Notes under the pieces: model-generated
The model's database searches: none
What the model saw: only the letters and a program-made list of their open reading frames with translations
Told to the model about the DNA's origin: nothing
Program-made: the position numbers and the translations under genes
NCBI GenBank assembly: GCA_002104535.1
Contig: NBOG01000006.1
Location: forward strand, 64,383-128,382
Source: Cognaticolwellia sediminilitoris
Lineage (GTDB): Bacteria > Pseudomonadota > Gammaproteobacteria > Enterobacterales > Alteromonadaceae
Direction of reading: 5' to 3'
DNA: 64,000 bases
Part shown: in pieces, positions 1,458-8,572 of the stretch
Position numbering within the stretch: the first letter of the stretch is position 1
Layout: each line of letters starts with the position of its first letter

Positions 1458-1847
1458 ATGCCTGATTTACAGAAAATTTTATATGCAGAAGATGAGCCAG
1501 ACATTCAACAGGTGGCTGAAATAGCCCTAGAAATGGTTGGTGGGTTTACGCTTAAAACCTGTTCTGACGGAAATGAAGCATTAAGTGAAGCCGTTGGCTT
1601 CGCGCCAGATTTATTTTTGTTTGATGTCATGATGCCAGGCATGGACGGCCCTACAACGTTAAAAAAACTTCGACAAGAGTCAAGTTTGGCTGATATTCCG
1701 GTAATATTTATGACCGCAAAAGTGCAACCAGATGAAGTTGCTGAGTTAAAAGCGTTAGGGGCAATTGAAGTCATTGCCAAACCTTTTGACCCCATGGAGC
1801 TAGCTAATCAAATTAAAGCTATATGGCAGCGATATCATGGTGGATAA
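1458..1847 (+). CDS. Single-domain response regulator (CheY-like receiver)
   Basis: The 129-residue protein is one receiver domain with no output domain. The acidic pocket is E11/D12, the phospho-acceptor is D56 in FLFDVMMPG, the conserved Thr is T86 in IFMTAK and the Lys is K108 in IAKPF, so it should be phosphorylatable. Its last 11 bases overlap the start of the next gene, an Hpt-REC-REC-GGDEF protein, so the two are almost certainly co-transcribed and translationally coupled. It may act as a phosphate shuttle or sink between the convergent hybrid kinase at 3535-6591 and the Hpt domain of its operon partner; this is inference. Confidence 0.93.
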   Translation: MPDLQKILYAEDEPDIQQVAEIALEMVGGFTLKTCSDGNEALSEAVGFAPDLFLFDVMMPGMDGPTTLKKLRQESSLADIPVIFMTAKVQPDEVAELKALGAIEVIAKPFDPMELANQIKAIWQRYHGG

Positions 1848-3495
1848 AAATACCAACGAGAATTTAGTAAAAAAATTAGCGCAACTTCAGGAAAAATACC
1901 TGCAATCATTGCCTGAAGAGTTAACTTATTTGGAAGGACTGTCTAAGACATTACAAGCTAATACGCTTGATGCGTTAACTATTAGTACTTTACATCAACG
2001 CTTGCATAAAATTACCGGTTCCGCAGGCACGTTTGGTTTACCAAAGCTTAGCCAAATGTCGCGCTCAATTGAGCAAAGATTGAAAAATTGGCAAGACCAA
2101 GAATTAGAAACTATTTCAACAGTACATTTGCAAGCCTTATGTGAAGATATTGAAGAACTTAAACAAAATATGACTGAAATAGAGTCAACGGTTCATTCTT
2201 ATTTACCGACAAAACAACGTCCTTCTTTTCAAGAAAAAGCCGAGCATATTTGGCTAGTCGAAGACGACCCTTTTTTAGGTCAAGAGTTGTCAGCGCAAAT
2301 AACATCTTTTGGCTATGAAGTTACCCTTTATAGTAGCTTGAAGAAAGTAGAAACAGCTATCAAGCAGGGCTTACCTGATTTGATGTTAGTAGACGTGATT
2401 TTTGCTGACGAAAATAAAAATTCAACCGATGTACTGCGATTAATGCCTGAATTTAATGCAAGGCATTGTCCCGTTATATTTATGTCTGCGCTTGATGACT
2501 TTCAATCAAGAATACAGGCAACACAATTAGGCGCTGAGGGTTTCTGTTTAAAACCTTTAGATGTTCCTAGGTTGATGAGTAAAATTGAAGATATATTTGC
2601 CAAGCGAACTGCGCCAGTACCTAGAGTGCTGATTGTTGATGATGATAGTAATTTAGCCAATCACTATAAGTTAGTACTTTTATCTGCCGGTATGGAAGCT
2701 GAAGTGCTAGAAAACCCAAAAGATATTCTGCAGGTTGTCATGTCATTTAATCCTGAGTTGGTGCTAATGGATGTTTATATGCCAGACTTTACTGGGCCAG
2801 AACTCGCAGGTGTTTTACGCCAACATGAAAATTGGGATAGTCTCCCGATCGTATTTTTATCTTCTGAAACAGACTTAGACAAACAGATTTCTGCCATGGA
2901 ATATGGTGCTGATGATTTTCTGACTAAGCCAATATCAGATAGTCAATTAATTTCAGCAGTTACTGTCCGTATACTTCGCTCTAGACAGCTTTCTGCATTA
3001 ATTAGTCGAGATAGTCTTACGGGGTTGCTAAAGCATTCTGCCATTAAGGATGCATTATCTGTAGAAGTTAATCGCAGTGAAAGAAGCAATACCAAGGTCG
3101 TTGTTGCGATGCTAGATATCGATCATTTTAAAGAAGTAAATGACACCTATGGCCACGCTGTTGGCGATGTGGTTATTAGCTCTGTCGCGGCAATTCTTAG
3201 ACAACGACTGCGACAATACGATATTGTTGGCCGCTACGGTGGCGAAGAGTTTGTCGTGGTATTGCCCGACTGTGAAATTGACTCAGCTTATACGATTATC
3301 GAAGAATTACGAGTACATTTCTCACAAGTTAAATTTCGCCATAATGACTTTTTCTTTAACTGTACTATTTCGGCAGGATTAGCGTCAACGTCAACATTTG
3401 AAGGTAGCAATGGTGCAGATTTACTTATCGAAGCTGATAAGGCGATGTACAAAGCTAAGCAGTTAGGAAGAAACCGTGTGGTAATCGCTAAGTAA
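1837..3495 (+). CDS. Hpt-REC-REC-GGDEF protein, predicted diguanylate cyclase
   Basis: A cytoplasmic protein of 552 residues with four domains. First is an N-terminal histidine phosphotransfer domain with H57 in LHKITGSAGTFG. A receiver follows (about 135-255, D186 in LVDVIF), then a second receiver (about 263-380, D312 in LMDVYMP). Last is a GGDEF domain with DIDHFKEVND and GGEEF at about 468-472. An RQYD motif lies five residues before GGEEF, matching the inhibitory c-di-GMP-binding I-site (RxxD), so the enzyme is predicted active and product-inhibited. It would make c-di-GMP from two GTP in response to phosphorelay input. The start overlaps the upstream receiver gene by 11 bases. The presence of Hpt and two receivers suggests it integrates more than one phosphate source. 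Confidence 0.92.
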   Translation: MVDKNTNENLVKKLAQLQEKYLQSLPEELTYLEGLSKTLQANTLDALTISTLHQRLHKITGSAGTFGLPKLSQMSRSIEQRLKNWQDQELETISTVHLQALCEDIEELKQNMTEIESTVHSYLPTKQRPSFQEKAEHIWLVEDDPFLGQELSAQITSFGYEVTLYSSLKKVETAIKQGLPDLMLVDVIFADENKNSTDVLRLMPEFNARHCPVIFMSALDDFQSRIQATQLGAEGFCLKPLDVPRLMSKIEDIFAKRTAPVPRVLIVDDDSNLANHYKLVLLSAGMEAEVLENPKDILQVVMSFNPELVLMDVYMPDFTGPELAGVLRQHENWDSLPIVFLSSETDLDKQISAMEYGADDFLTKPISDSQLISAVTVRILRSRQLSALISRDSLTGLLKHSAIKDALSVEVNRSERSNTKVVVAMLDIDHFKEVNDTYGHAVGDVVISSVAAILRQRLRQYDIVGRYGGEEFVVVLPDCEIDSAYTIIEELRVHFSQVKFRHNDFFFNCTISAGLASTSTFEGSNGADLLIEADKAMYKAKQLGRNRVVIAK

Positions 3496-3534: not shown

Positions 3535-6500
3535 TTACTTATCTTTATTTACTTGATTAAGTTGTTTTTTGATTGACCGTACTAAACTCTCATTATTGAC
3601 ATTAGCTTTAACGACGCTGTCTGAAACCATTTCACTATATTCTTGTGGGATTTCCTGAGCAGAAAAAACCATAATAGGGGGTGGCTTGGGTAAAAGTGCG
3701 TTTATTGATGGAATTAAATCAAGACCAGAGCCATCAGGTAACTCTATATCTAAAATGACCAAGTCAAAATGGCCTTGCTCGATAGCTCGTAAGCCAGCTT
3801 TACAAGTGGTTTCTACCTGCAATGTAGCACTGTCTTTTAGCATTTCAGTTAATAGCAAACCAAGACTTACGTCATCTTCAACATAAAGAATTTTCACTTC
3901 GTTTTCACTTTCACTCAATAACAAGGTATTAAGTGTTGATACTAAACCTTCAACATCAATTGGTTTTTCTAACCAATCGAGGACATGAAAAACTTCTAGT
4001 TCTGGCTGTTGCTGTACTTCATTAGCGATAGCTGAAATAACAATAATGGGTAACTTGCGGGTTCTTTCGTCAGCACGTAATTCTTTTATCAGTGTTACAC
4101 CGCTCTTACCGGGTAAATTTAAGTCCAAAAATAAAGCATTAAATGAACTTTCAAATATTGCTTCTTTAGCCGCCTCTGCTGAGGTAACAATTTCGCTATC
4201 ACAATGTTGCTCTTTAGTAATCATAGATAAAAGTGTCGCGATATCAGGGTCGTCTTCACAGATTAAAATTCGCGCTTTTTCACCTTTAGTCAGAGAGCTA
4301 ATGTTTGTGAACACTTCATTTTCGATATCAGCTATCGCCGGTAAACTAAAATAAAAACGGCTGCCTTGTGGGCTAGTTTCAAAGCCAATTTCGCCATCAT
4401 GTTGTTCAACAATAGCTTTGGCAATACTTAGTCCAAGACCCGTTCCTCCTTTAGCCCGAGTAGCTGAAGAGTCGGCTTGATTGAATTTTTGAAATATCCT
4501 CGAAAGAAATTCATCAGGAATACCGGGCCCTTTATCCGAAATACTAAATATTAACTTGTCTAATTTTTTTTCAACATCAAGTTGCACTGCTTCACCTTTT
4601 GGCGAGTATTTTATAGCATTAGAGAGTAAGTTAGTGATGACCTGATTAATTCTATCGGCGTCAGCATCTAACTCTAAAGTCGGAGAAACCTCACCAAGTG
4701 TTAGTTTTACTTGGTGGCTAGTGGCCATACCTTCATTGCTATGTATTATTTGCTCTAAAAATTCAGCAACACCGAAACGCTTAGTTTTCAGTATAACGTT
4801 GCCAGATTCCATTTTTTCAATATCAAGAATATCATTAATTAAGCGAATTAATCTGTCGGTGCTTCTTACTGCTATATCAAGCATAGTATTAGCTTTAGCA
4901 CCTAAATCACCGGTTACACCACCCACTAATAAACCTAAAGAGCCACGTATAGAGGTTAATGGTGTACGTAATTCATGACTTACCACAGAAATGAATTCTG
5001 ACTTAGCTTTCTCTACTCGTTTTCTTTCTGTAATATCTCGCACTAAGCCGACAAATTTTTGTTGCCCGTCAACCCACATTTCATTGACAGATAATTCTGC
5101 TGGGAATTCATCTCCATTTGCACGACATGCGGTAATTTCACGATCTTGCCCGATGATTTTTCGAACATTAGTTTTGTGATAATTATTTAAGTAACCATCA
5201 TGCTCACCATGATATGGCTGTGGCATTAATGTTTTGACATTTTTACCTAAAAGTTGCTGTTCTTGATATTGAAATATTTTGCAGCCAGCTGGATTAATTG
5301 ATTCTATTATTCCGAGGTTATCAATGACAATAAGGGCATCGACGACGGTATCTATGGTTGTTTTTAATTGTACGGCGCTAGCCGCAACTTTTTGCTCCCT
5401 AGTCAACACTGCTTGACGCATTTCATCAAATGAATGAGCAAGTTCGCCAAATTCATCTTGGCTATCAATATTGAGCTTGAAATCCATATTGCCGTGAGCA
5501 AATTCGTTACTGGCCAGTACTAATGACTGGATTGGTTTCATTAATTTTGTGGTCCAGTAGCGGGCAATTAAAATTGCAGTGCAAATCATCAACAACAATA
5601 ATATTCCAAAAATCCAACGTGCTCTGTCGCTAATAGATTGAACATGGCTTGAGTTATTATTCATGGAGTTAAGTTGTACTTTGAGTAGCGTGTCAATGTC
5701 TTGCTGAATCGACAATGCTAAAGGCATAGCGTTATTTTTAAGCCAGTAGTTAGCAACATGCCAATTATCATTGTCACGTTTTGCTACTACCTGTTTTATC
5801 TGTATATCGTAACCGTTAAAAATTTTCTTTAGTTGCTGAACCTCTGCAGTAAAATTTTGGTCATTTTTATTACTCATATTAACTAAAGTGGTCAGCAATC
5901 GTTTTGATTGATTATCAGAGTCTAATACTGTTTGTTTTTCGGATTTTTCGCCATGTTGAACATAGATTGCTAGCGTCGCTTGTAAACCAGAAATTTCTTT
6001 TGAAAGGTGAAGCATAGTTTCTAAGTTAGCTGCTCGTAATAATAAATTAGGGTTTTTATTATTTTTATGAATCAAACGATTAAGGCTATCTTGTAAAGTG
6101 TGATATATCGGCGTGGCATAGCGCTGAAAGTGAAAGAACGCTGGTAAGTTACCTTCATTAGTTGATGCTTCAAATATATACCATTGCCATTCGTGAAGAT
6201 CTGCAAGTTGTTGTTTAATATTATGCAATTGTTGGAGGTTAACATGAGCTTTCCCTGCTTTAACTAAAGCTTCTAACTGATCAATGCTAGGGAAAATATC
6301 ATCGTTCCAAACGCTGTTATTGTTTTGACGTATAATAGGGTCTTGTATTGCTACCCATCCCCTTAATGATGATAGTGCTTGCTGTAAACTTGATTGTAAT
6401 TTTAACCACGTAACCGTTTCAGGAATTTCCTGCTCTATTAACTTGGTTGAGCTTGAGCGTAGTTGAGATGTCACCAACGTTGCTATTAATAATATAATTA

Positions 6501-6591
6501 AACCAATAGCCGCCAACCCAAGGTAAGATGAATATAATTGGCGCTTTAAAGCACTACTTTTTTGATTATTTTTCATGACGGGGGCTGCCAT
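3535..6591 (-). CDS. Membrane hybrid sensor histidine kinase (HAMP-PAS-HisKA-HATPase-REC-REC)
   Basis: The protein has 1018 residues. It has a first membrane helix at about 23-42, a helical periplasmic region at about 43-326, a second helix at about 327-345, HAMP at about 347-399 and a PAS domain at about 408-525 with FixL-like residues. HisKA carries the phospho-acceptor H539 in SVVSHELRTP, and HATPase_c has the N box NLLSNAIKYS, DKGPGIPD and GGTGLGLSIAK. Two receivers follow, with D823 (LFLDLNLPG) and D948 (VILDIELPDG). There is no C-terminal Hpt, but the convergent gene at 1837-3495 has one, suggesting a relay. Its first 26 bases overlap the 3' end of the PxDV-repeat gene, implying a two-gene operon. 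M6 is an alternative start; neither has a clear ribosome-binding site. Confidence 0.93.
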   Translation of the reverse strand: MAAPVMKNNQKSSALKRQLYSSYLGLAAIGLIILLIATLVTSQLRSSSTKLIEQEIPETVTWLKLQSSLQQALSSLRGWVAIQDPIIRQNNNSVWNDDIFPSIDQLEALVKAGKAHVNLQQLHNIKQQLADLHEWQWYIFEASTNEGNLPAFFHFQRYATPIYHTLQDSLNRLIHKNNKNPNLLLRAANLETMLHLSKEISGLQATLAIYVQHGEKSEKQTVLDSDNQSKRLLTTLVNMSNKNDQNFTAEVQQLKKIFNGYDIQIKQVVAKRDNDNWHVANYWLKNNAMPLALSIQQDIDTLLKVQLNSMNNNSSHVQSISDRARWIFGILLLLMICTAILIARYWTTKLMKPIQSLVLASNEFAHGNMDFKLNIDSQDEFGELAHSFDEMRQAVLTREQKVAASAVQLKTTIDTVVDALIVIDNLGIIESINPAGCKIFQYQEQQLLGKNVKTLMPQPYHGEHDGYLNNYHKTNVRKIIGQDREITACRANGDEFPAELSVNEMWVDGQQKFVGLVRDITERKRVEKAKSEFISVVSHELRTPLTSIRGSLGLLVGGVTGDLGAKANTMLDIAVRSTDRLIRLINDILDIEKMESGNVILKTKRFGVAEFLEQIIHSNEGMATSHQVKLTLGEVSPTLELDADADRINQVITNLLSNAIKYSPKGEAVQLDVEKKLDKLIFSISDKGPGIPDEFLSRIFQKFNQADSSATRAKGGTGLGLSIAKAIVEQHDGEIGFETSPQGSRFYFSLPAIADIENEVFTNISSLTKGEKARILICEDDPDIATLLSMITKEQHCDSEIVTSAEAAKEAIFESSFNALFLDLNLPGKSGVTLIKELRADERTRKLPIIVISAIANEVQQQPELEVFHVLDWLEKPIDVEGLVSTLNTLLLSESENEVKILYVEDDVSLGLLLTEMLKDSATLQVETTCKAGLRAIEQGHFDLVILDIELPDGSGLDLIPSINALLPKPPPIMVFSAQEIPQEYSEMVSDSVVKANVNNESLVRSIKKQLNQVNKDK

Positions 6592-7672
6592 TATTTTTAT
6601 GTGTTGTTGAAATCGACTTTAACTGTAAAAGTTGTTTGTGAAGTACCCCTACGCGTTGATAAACATCTGCTGGCAATTTATCGGTAACTTCGACCGTTGG
6701 GACAACCTCATCAATTTTATCTCTTAAAGTGTGCAAATAGGCTAATTCAGAAACCAGCAATGCGGCATATTGATATACATCTCCTGGGCGAATTGTATCA
6801 AAGACATTATTGTCGGCTTTGATAAGTAATGTTTTTTCACCATAATTTTGAGCAACGTCTCTCAGTAGATTAAAACTGTCTGCTAGCAATAACCAAACGT
6901 CAGAGGGTTTTTTATTGATGTTAAATTCAGGTGCTTCCGGTATGCGAGAGATAACCGAATAGCTTGAGAGTATTTTGGCCATATAATGCACACCTAATGT
7001 GACTTGCTGATATACATCATTAGGTGAATATGGCTGTTCAAGCATGACATCGAGTTGACGATTAATTTGTAACAAAGCCATAAAAACATCACTGGGCGAA
7101 GTTGTTTTTGCTACCTCTTGTTCTTTAAGAGTATCTGCTATGGATAAGTTATTGCTGATAGCCGATAGCTGTATTGAAGCTCTATCAGTTATCTGCCATA
7201 CATGGTAAGGCTTAAGTGCTTTGCCAGTAGCAAATGTAATGTTTGGTTCTTCATTAAAAACGCTTAAACGTTCAAAAGTAAATCGATTTACCCGGCCATA
7301 AAAAGCTAACGCCTGAAAGTATACTTCTCTAGGTTGAGCTTCACTGACCTCGATATTAAGCTGATTTGCTAACGGTAAATTAAGTGCTGTTCTAATTTGC
7401 TCCAGTTGTTTTGTTGCAAGATTCACTCTTGATAAAACATCGGCAGGGTTTATTGTTTCTAAAGTTATCGCATGGCCACTAATTGGAGGAATTGAATTTA
7501 CGTTGTCAGCATAAAGCTTGGGAGATATTGCTAATAATATCAATAAAATAAATGGCATAAAAAAGTACATCGTGTGTTTATTTAAAATTCGATTTAAGAG
7601 TAAGTTAGCACGATTCATAGTGAGAAAATAATTACCAAATTTGCTTGTTAACACTGCATTACTTTTGACCAT
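6566..7672 (-). CDS. Secreted PxDV-repeat protein of unknown function
   Basis: I do not recognise this protein as a named family. A signal peptide or anchor with a hydrophobic run at about 36-52 ends near LYA/DN at 55-57. The mature part carries eight copies of a P-x-[DEH]-V-aromatic/Leu motif, beginning at residues 76, 114, 155, 193, 217, 256, 296 and 334. Spacings are 38, 41, 38, 24, 39, 40 and 38, and each motif is followed by a predicted amphipathic helix. This suggests an alpha-helical repeat solenoid in the periplasm. The gene overlaps the following hybrid kinase by 26 bases, so it is probably co-expressed and may present a ligand to the kinase's periplasmic domain (inference). The true start may be Met19 (7618) or Met35 (7570); none has a good ribosome-binding site. 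Confidence 0.8.
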   Translation of the reverse strand: MVKSNAVLTSKFGNYFLTMNRANLLLNRILNKHTMYFFMPFILLILLAISPKLYADNVNSIPPISGHAITLETINPADVLSRVNLATKQLEQIRTALNLPLANQLNIEVSEAQPREVYFQALAFYGRVNRFTFERLSVFNEEPNITFATGKALKPYHVWQITDRASIQLSAISNNLSIADTLKEQEVAKTTSPSDVFMALLQINRQLDVMLEQPYSPNDVYQQVTLGVHYMAKILSSYSVISRIPEAPEFNINKKPSDVWLLLADSFNLLRDVAQNYGEKTLLIKADNNVFDTIRPGDVYQYAALLVSELAYLHTLRDKIDEVVPTVEVTDKLPADVYQRVGVLHKQLLQLKSISTTHKNNGSPRHEK

Positions 7673-8203: not shown

Positions 8204-8572
8204 ATGACTTTTATTAAGAAATTATCTAGCACATTCATTATTTTAGTTGCTGTACTTGGCTTAACCGCCTGTAGCGAAAAAGAAGCAGAAACAACCGGTT
8301 CTAAAGTAGATGAAATGGTTAAAGATGCAGGGACGAAAGCAAAAGAAATGAAAGAAAGTGCAGGCAATACGCTTGAGTCTGCTGGCGAAAAAGCAAGTGA
8401 AATGGCTAGTGATGCAGGAGATGCCGTTGAAGATGCTGGTGAAAAAGTAAGTGAAATGGCAAGTGATGCTGGCGATAAATTAAGCGAAATAAAAACTGAT
8501 GCTGGTAATGCCGTTGAAGACGCTTGTGAAAAAGCTAAGAAACTAATGAAAACAGAAGATACTGATTGCTAA
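8204..8572 (+). CDS. LEA-like repeat lipoprotein
   Basis: The 122-residue precursor has a signal peptide ending in the lipobox LTAC, with the lipidated Cys at 23. The mature protein is Ala/Glu/Lys/Asp-rich, with no aromatic residues. It is built of repeated blocks of the type DAGxKxxExxx (11 residues) alternating with DAGxAVE (7 residues). This composition resembles late-embryogenesis-abundant or apolipoprotein-like amphipathic helices, often tied to desiccation or membrane stress. The last block reads DACEK where the earlier ones read DAGEK, and the chain ends in Cys, so two cysteines near the C-terminus could form a disulfide. The ribosome-binding site is TAAGGAAAA. It follows a DUF1328 gene. 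Function is unproven. Confidence 0.85.
   Translation: MTFIKKLSSTFIILVAVLGLTACSEKEAETTGSKVDEMVKDAGTKAKEMKESAGNTLESAGEKASEMASDAGDAVEDAGEKVSEMASDAGDKLSEIKTDAGNAVEDACEKAKKLMKTEDTDC

Follow-up and report, generated by a model that had tools for sequence, protein, structure and literature searches.

What does a secreted protein do when its gene runs into that of a hybrid histidine kinase? We addressed this question at a locus within a 64,000-nucleotide stretch of the Cognaticolwellia sediminilitoris genome (contig NBOG01000006.1), referred to below as the window. The gene (6566..7672, minus strand) is an open reading frame of 368 amino acids with candidate start codons at residue 1, 19 or 35, and a likely signal peptide could be read from its sequence at residues 35-55 (7508..7570, minus strand). 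Its end overlaps the start of the kinase gene by the predicted 26 bases (6566-6591, minus strand), if the kinase is taken to start at its first ATG. The kinase itself (3535..6591, minus strand; 1018 amino acids) has two transmembrane segments, near residues 18 and 323, followed by HAMP, PAS, HisKA, HATPase_c and two receiver domains. Between the two segments lies an extracytoplasmic region of about 285 residues (about residues 43-322; 5626..6465, minus strand), which is the presumed docking site for the secreted protein and which matched no PDB sequence. Our main reading, to which we assign a probability of about 0.7, is that the 368-residue protein is secreted and acts in the periplasm as an accessory subunit of the transmembrane receptor.

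The protein contains eight motifs of the form P-x-[DEH]-V-[YWFL]. They start at residues 76, 114, 155, 193, 217, 256, 296 and 334, with spacings of 38, 41, 38, 24, 39, 40 and 38, and all eight were recovered at exactly the residues given in the original prediction. That prediction had described the last motif residue as aromatic; this held for seven of the eight, which fit P-x-[DEH]-V-[YWF], and failed at residue 76, where the motif is PADVL and ends in leucine. A count of two was the maximum reached when the protein was shuffled 100,000 times, whether by the strict (YWF) or the loose (YWFL) definition, compared with seven and eight in the real protein.

Searches for a known family covered the window protein and its relatives. 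The protein matched no Pfam or NCBIfam family at E values up to 10, TPR and other repeat models in Pfam included; there was likewise no match among the Pfam binding-protein families, none in PHROGs at E up to 0.01, and none among PDB sequences, either with the protein itself or with a 24-member profile. When the 24 members were searched individually at E up to 0.01, NCBIfam yielded nothing and Pfam a weak, stray match of one member to DUF1512 (E 0.0025). Four further members were compared with Pfam: L116 had no match, and L063 (0.015), L136 (0.069) and L028 (0.083) had only weak ones. The literature searched, outside of which most subscription papers lie, held no description of this secreted eight-motif family. 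The 368-residue protein belongs to a family without a name and without a matching solved fold. It had been stated beforehand that no named family was known to carry this signature, and Pfam, NCBIfam, PDB sequences and the fold searches described below gave no clear match to a known domain, the outcome that had been named as contrary to the prediction.

We then considered how the protein is built. Two AlphaFold2 models were confident (pLDDT 83 and 92; pTM 0.82 and 0.89) and nearly all-helical, with single helices at the motifs; they do not have the bilobal fold of binding proteins. In the model, a helix of 19-27 residues starts exactly at every motif proline, in agreement with the earlier expectation of a helix after each motif. 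The expected architecture of eight equal repeats was abandoned in favor of two four-helix units. Repeat i paired with repeat i+4 was the top of 105 pairings, even with the motif columns left out, with similarities of 0.69, 0.45, 0.54 and 0.29 for the four pairs (repeat 1 versus repeat 3 also reached 0.66). At the family level, repeats 1-4 and repeats 5-8 gave an in-register hhalign alignment of 138 columns (probability 99.8, E 3.3e-28), as against probabilities of 0.09-0.16 for five column-shuffled halves, 0.08-0.28 for three ectodomain profiles, and 5.4 (E 0.0071) for a reversed half. The true repeat is a unit of about 139 amino acids and four helices, present twice: unit 1 spans approximate residues 72-211 (7040..7459, minus strand) with the motifs at 76 (PADVL), 114, 155 and 193, and unit 2, its in-register homologue by hhalign, spans approximate residues 212-355 (6608..7039, minus strand) with those at 217, 256, 296 and 334. 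The odd spacing of 24 residues is explained by the junction between the two units. A bundle in which helices 1-4 run in one direction and helices 5-8 in the opposite one, with extended crossovers between them, would fit the linker lengths. Fold searches of the PDB with the models found no convincing match, and the modelled fold may be new to that database.

The pattern was kept to different degrees within the family. Distant members such as L116 and L136 have the same eight motif positions with near-identical spacings, in many others just part of the set is present, and six chemoreceptor-linked members (L028-L033) have none in strict form. An alignment of 59 members revealed that each motif position has a consensus of its own and that the most conserved positions are the P, D and V of the motif. 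Cysteine did not exceed 19% in any column and was absent from 18 of the 59 members; none is conserved. Some members are of double length, about 617-638 amino acids, and five of their genomes contain two adjacent profile matches.

Relatives were sought at increasing taxonomic depth. A single-sequence search detected them in 2 of 60 genomes and then in 5 of 295 genomes of the same taxonomic family, the window's own genome counted. Profiles were needed for the other relatives; built from those first ones, they gave 11/394 genomes at the order level, 23/369 at the class level and 30/299 at the phylum level, counts in all of which the own genome and genome G017 recur. The resulting set comprised 72 family ORFs in 71 loci, window included (profile E up to 1e-3). 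Scanning named genomes yielded 26 loci in Magnetococcales, Propionivibrio, Sulfuritalea, gammaproteobacteria, Sulfurimonas, Arcobacteraceae and other Campylobacterales; these apparently repeat some of the 71, and the neighbor counts below refer to the 71-locus set alone unless named genomes are mentioned. Members occur in numerous proteobacteria and in some of the Campylobacterota, and the mean identities are about 18-31% for the subfamilies. Viral contigs contained one relative, and a plasmid search with the single member L116 as query had no match. An export-like hydrophobic stretch was found at the N-terminus of 66 of the 67 members tested and a lipobox in none of the 67; periplasmic export is predicted from the signal peptide and these N-termini. 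The own genome contains a second, divergent member (locus L024, contig C3, 6094-13000; a partial match with E 3.4e-8), immediately ahead of a hybrid kinase gene, which is followed by genes for CheR, CheB and an RR-GGDEF protein.

Evidence for a receptor partner came from the genes beside family members. In 54 of 72 cases the next same-strand gene within 100 bp encoded a receptor (37 histidine kinases, 14 chemoreceptors and three GGDEF proteins), and all 54 of these downstream partners have a transmembrane segment. The downstream gene was a membrane ORF without a recognized domain in a further two; a receptor gene lay immediately upstream in six (five MCP, one kinase), two ORFs were at a contig end, and eight lacked a receptor neighbor (L010, beside a porin gene; L026 and L027, beside a TonB receptor gene; L064, L067, L139, L140 and L141). 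L140 and L141 are weak partial matches and L139 is one half of a split ORF; L139 is also one of the three GGDEF cases, in which a split, weak match precedes a protein with several transmembrane segments. Merging members above 60% identity left 57, with 41 downstream receptors (29 kinases, nine chemoreceptors, three GGDEF proteins), two membrane ORFs, five upstream receptors, two contig ends and seven without any. In a matched control consisting of the other ORFs of at least 150 amino acids in the same loci, a transmembrane signaling gene was downstream in only 5 of 467, or 18 of 467 if no transmembrane segment was demanded; this control is fairer than our first one (5/468, transmembrane segment demanded). 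Counting either side without that demand, the values were 60/72 for the family and 52/526 for the control, the latter indicating surroundings rich in signaling genes as such. Because the search used protein profiles without context, adjacency was not selected for.

Gaps to the downstream receptor gene ranged from -68 to +52 bp; 15 were exactly -4, and 25 of 54 genes overlapped, a maximum count because each gene was taken from its earliest candidate start codon. In the named genomes, 22 of 25 located members were directly before a kinase gene and the other three before a transmembrane ORF, and a GGDEF gene belonged to the gene run of six. Among 34 kinase-type loci with a traceable gene run, CheB and/or CheR was present in 17 and a GGDEF gene in two. 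The original prediction had asked whether homologues always sit beside a HAMP-PAS hybrid kinase. They do not, as chemoreceptor and GGDEF partners exist and 8 of 72 have none; homologues lacking any link to kinases, the result that would have spoken against it, are likewise not what we found, given the 54 of 72 with a downstream membrane receptor against 5 of 467.

Several other features of these loci were observed. At L007, L009, L011 and L025, the family and receptor ORFs are in one frame with a single stop codon between them. At L112, the ORF directly before the family gene (5108-6151) encodes a membrane protein that has two CHASE3 stretches but lacks a kinase part, and ORFs of the same length and place occur at L114 and L119. 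Pfam matches placed alginate-export-type porin genes next to the family members L010, L011 and L025. The next gene was that of a TonB-dependent receptor at L026 (Pfam) and at L027 (by like sequence alone), two loci that have no adjacent signaling receptor gene.

The 60 partner N-termini fell into groups of 31 kinases, 18 chemoreceptors and seven that include the window kinase, plus four singles; clusters were formed from the first 345 residues, so that short MCP ectodomains may be linked through their HAMP or signaling part. The group of the window kinase also holds two GGDEF partners (L072, L073) and the kinases L007, L074, L075 and L076. Four partners that we place in the group of 31, those of L008, L144, L163 and L164, score above the cut-off of the kinase sensor domain PF21623 and have Cache matches. 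In hhalign comparisons, the Cache-type profile scored a probability of 0.15 against the window type and 0.07 against the chemoreceptor type, while a relationship between the latter two is possible (probability 80.6, E 1.3e-5, 131 columns). The secreted-family profile resembled none of the three ectodomain profiles. Judged by these alignments, the partners carry ectodomains of no fewer than two unrelated types, Cache and non-Cache. L175, a relative of the window ectodomain, matches 4HB_MCP_1, and for this reason we take the window ectodomain to be helical. Among 15 loci with a window-type ectodomain (about 1.5 kb inspected on either side), a secreted-family gene was present in just two. Because this ectodomain also occurs without the secreted gene, the secreted protein seems to be added to the receptor rather than demanded by one ectodomain type.

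Co-evolution of the secreted protein with its partner was estimated from 37/48 pairs after near-identical ones were dropped. A signal was present (partial Mantel, 2/5000), with a partial correlation of 0.300 for the ectodomain and 0.305 for the kinase core. We discarded ectodomain-specific co-evolution as evidence, since the kinase core correlates as highly.

Three other explanations of this association were weighed against that of an accessory subunit. The protein might be a structural or tethering factor, bridging the ectodomain to an outer-membrane porin or the cell wall and relaying the state of the envelope or of transport instead of a soluble ligand. The porin genes by L010, L011 and L025 and the TonB receptor by L026, with the similar gene by L027, are consistent with such a bridge, as is conservation that centers on the P, D and V of the motif, with cysteine at 19% or below in every column. 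A porin model nevertheless detected no other porin among the loci retrieved, although this model was poor and held an unrelated ORF (L010_4) chosen by length; the TonB model was built from L026 and L027 themselves and hence is no test of either. We consider a tether improbable. Slightly less probable still is a chaperone or stability factor that helps the receptor to fold or insert and carries no signal. In its favor, the short gaps and overlaps suggest translational coupling (25 of 54 overlapping, as an upper bound), but the partner ectodomains differ, relatives of the window ectodomain occur without the secreted protein, the length of some members is roughly doubled, and in 6 of 72 the receptor gene precedes that of the secreted protein.

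The adjacency could also reflect shared regulation alone, with the protein being a passenger that has some other periplasmic role. Eight of the 72 genes have no receptor neighbor and the co-evolution signal is not ectodomain-specific, both of which speak for a passenger. This explanation is nonetheless very unlikely, because the downstream association of 54/72 versus 5/467 (or 18/467) persists across subfamilies of about 18-31% identity and three output types.

We return to the accessory subunit. The secreted neighbor stays constant while the output (histidine kinase, MCP, GGDEF) and the ectodomain type vary. Export, adjacency to receptors with large ectodomains, and this free variation of receptor output place the likely site of action on the periplasmic face. 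An N-terminal signal peptide would export the protein, and the mature chain is predicted to fold as two homologous four-helix units with a P-x-D-V-Y-type motif at each helix start. It would then dock on the extracytoplasmic domain of whichever receptor the adjacent gene encodes, here the hybrid kinase, and a ligand or envelope component bound by it would change kinase output. That output may pass by phosphorelay to c-di-GMP, probably through a nearby Hpt-REC-REC-GGDEF protein (1837..3495, plus strand), whose gene is convergent with that of the kinase; the proximity of this possible output gene is what suggests the route. Counting against the accessory-subunit reading are the eight family ORFs that lack a receptor neighbor, the window-type ectodomains that occur without a secreted-family gene, the co-evolution signal that is as high for the kinase core, and the general density of signaling genes at these loci.

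Other genes of the window were also noted. A single receiver protein (1458-1847) precedes the Hpt-REC-REC-GGDEF gene. An SBP_bac_3-like exported protein is encoded at 479-1237 (E 3.9e-5; 23.9 bits versus a cut-off of 26.4), and at 8204-8572 lies a small lipoprotein-like ORF with K/E/A-rich repeats, whose apolipoprotein match is below the cut-off.

The suggestion that the protein is a periplasmic partner of the kinase, and possibly a new accessory-sensor class, is supported by the lack of a known domain and by the 54/72 downstream receptors versus 5/467. We propose, more tentatively and at somewhat less than even odds, that the family represents a novel class of periplasmic co-receptors and a novel fold. 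Its members would be all-helical, internally duplicated sensing subunits of general purpose, serving kinases, chemoreceptors and diguanylate cyclases whose ectodomains differ, across Pseudomonadota and Campylobacterota. If this is true, a separate exported protein would show, for dozens of receptors that differ in ectodomain and output, where part of the sensing happens, and it would offer a single gene for deletion studies and a single protein for purification and ligand screening. In most bacterial receptor systems, a large majority, the signals are not known, according to PMC6321045.

How does the family compare with known systems? With helical repeat proteins such as TPR it shares repeated helices and a motif spacing of about 40 residues. 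The window protein differs from them in having one helix per 38-41 residues, a four-helix unit occurring twice, and no Pfam family matched even at E up to 10. A second comparison is with HmsC-HmsD, in which a periplasmic protein controls a membrane diguanylate cyclase (PMC8846402). HmsC is described there as having several cysteine pairs, whereas the secreted family has no conserved cysteine and 18 of 59 members have none at all. Further parallels are TorT-TorS, LuxP-LuxQ, XylFII-LytS and other pairs in which a separate periplasmic binding protein acts with the receptor ectodomain (PMC6321045, PMC8534201). According to PMC6321045, receptors using such binding proteins include ones that have 4HB, HBM, sCACHE or dCACHE ectodomains, indirect sensing is not tied to a single ectodomain type, and the ligand-binding proteins are bilobal. 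The secreted family is like the TorT/LuxP class in its predicted export and in having its gene beside that of a transmembrane receptor (54/72 downstream, 60/72 on either side). It differs in its modelled fold, which is all-helical and made of two four-helix units, whereas the TorT/LuxP class is described as bilobal. The best reading of these comparisons is that the window protein would work like the periplasmic accessory sensors TorT and LuxP, from outside their bilobal class.
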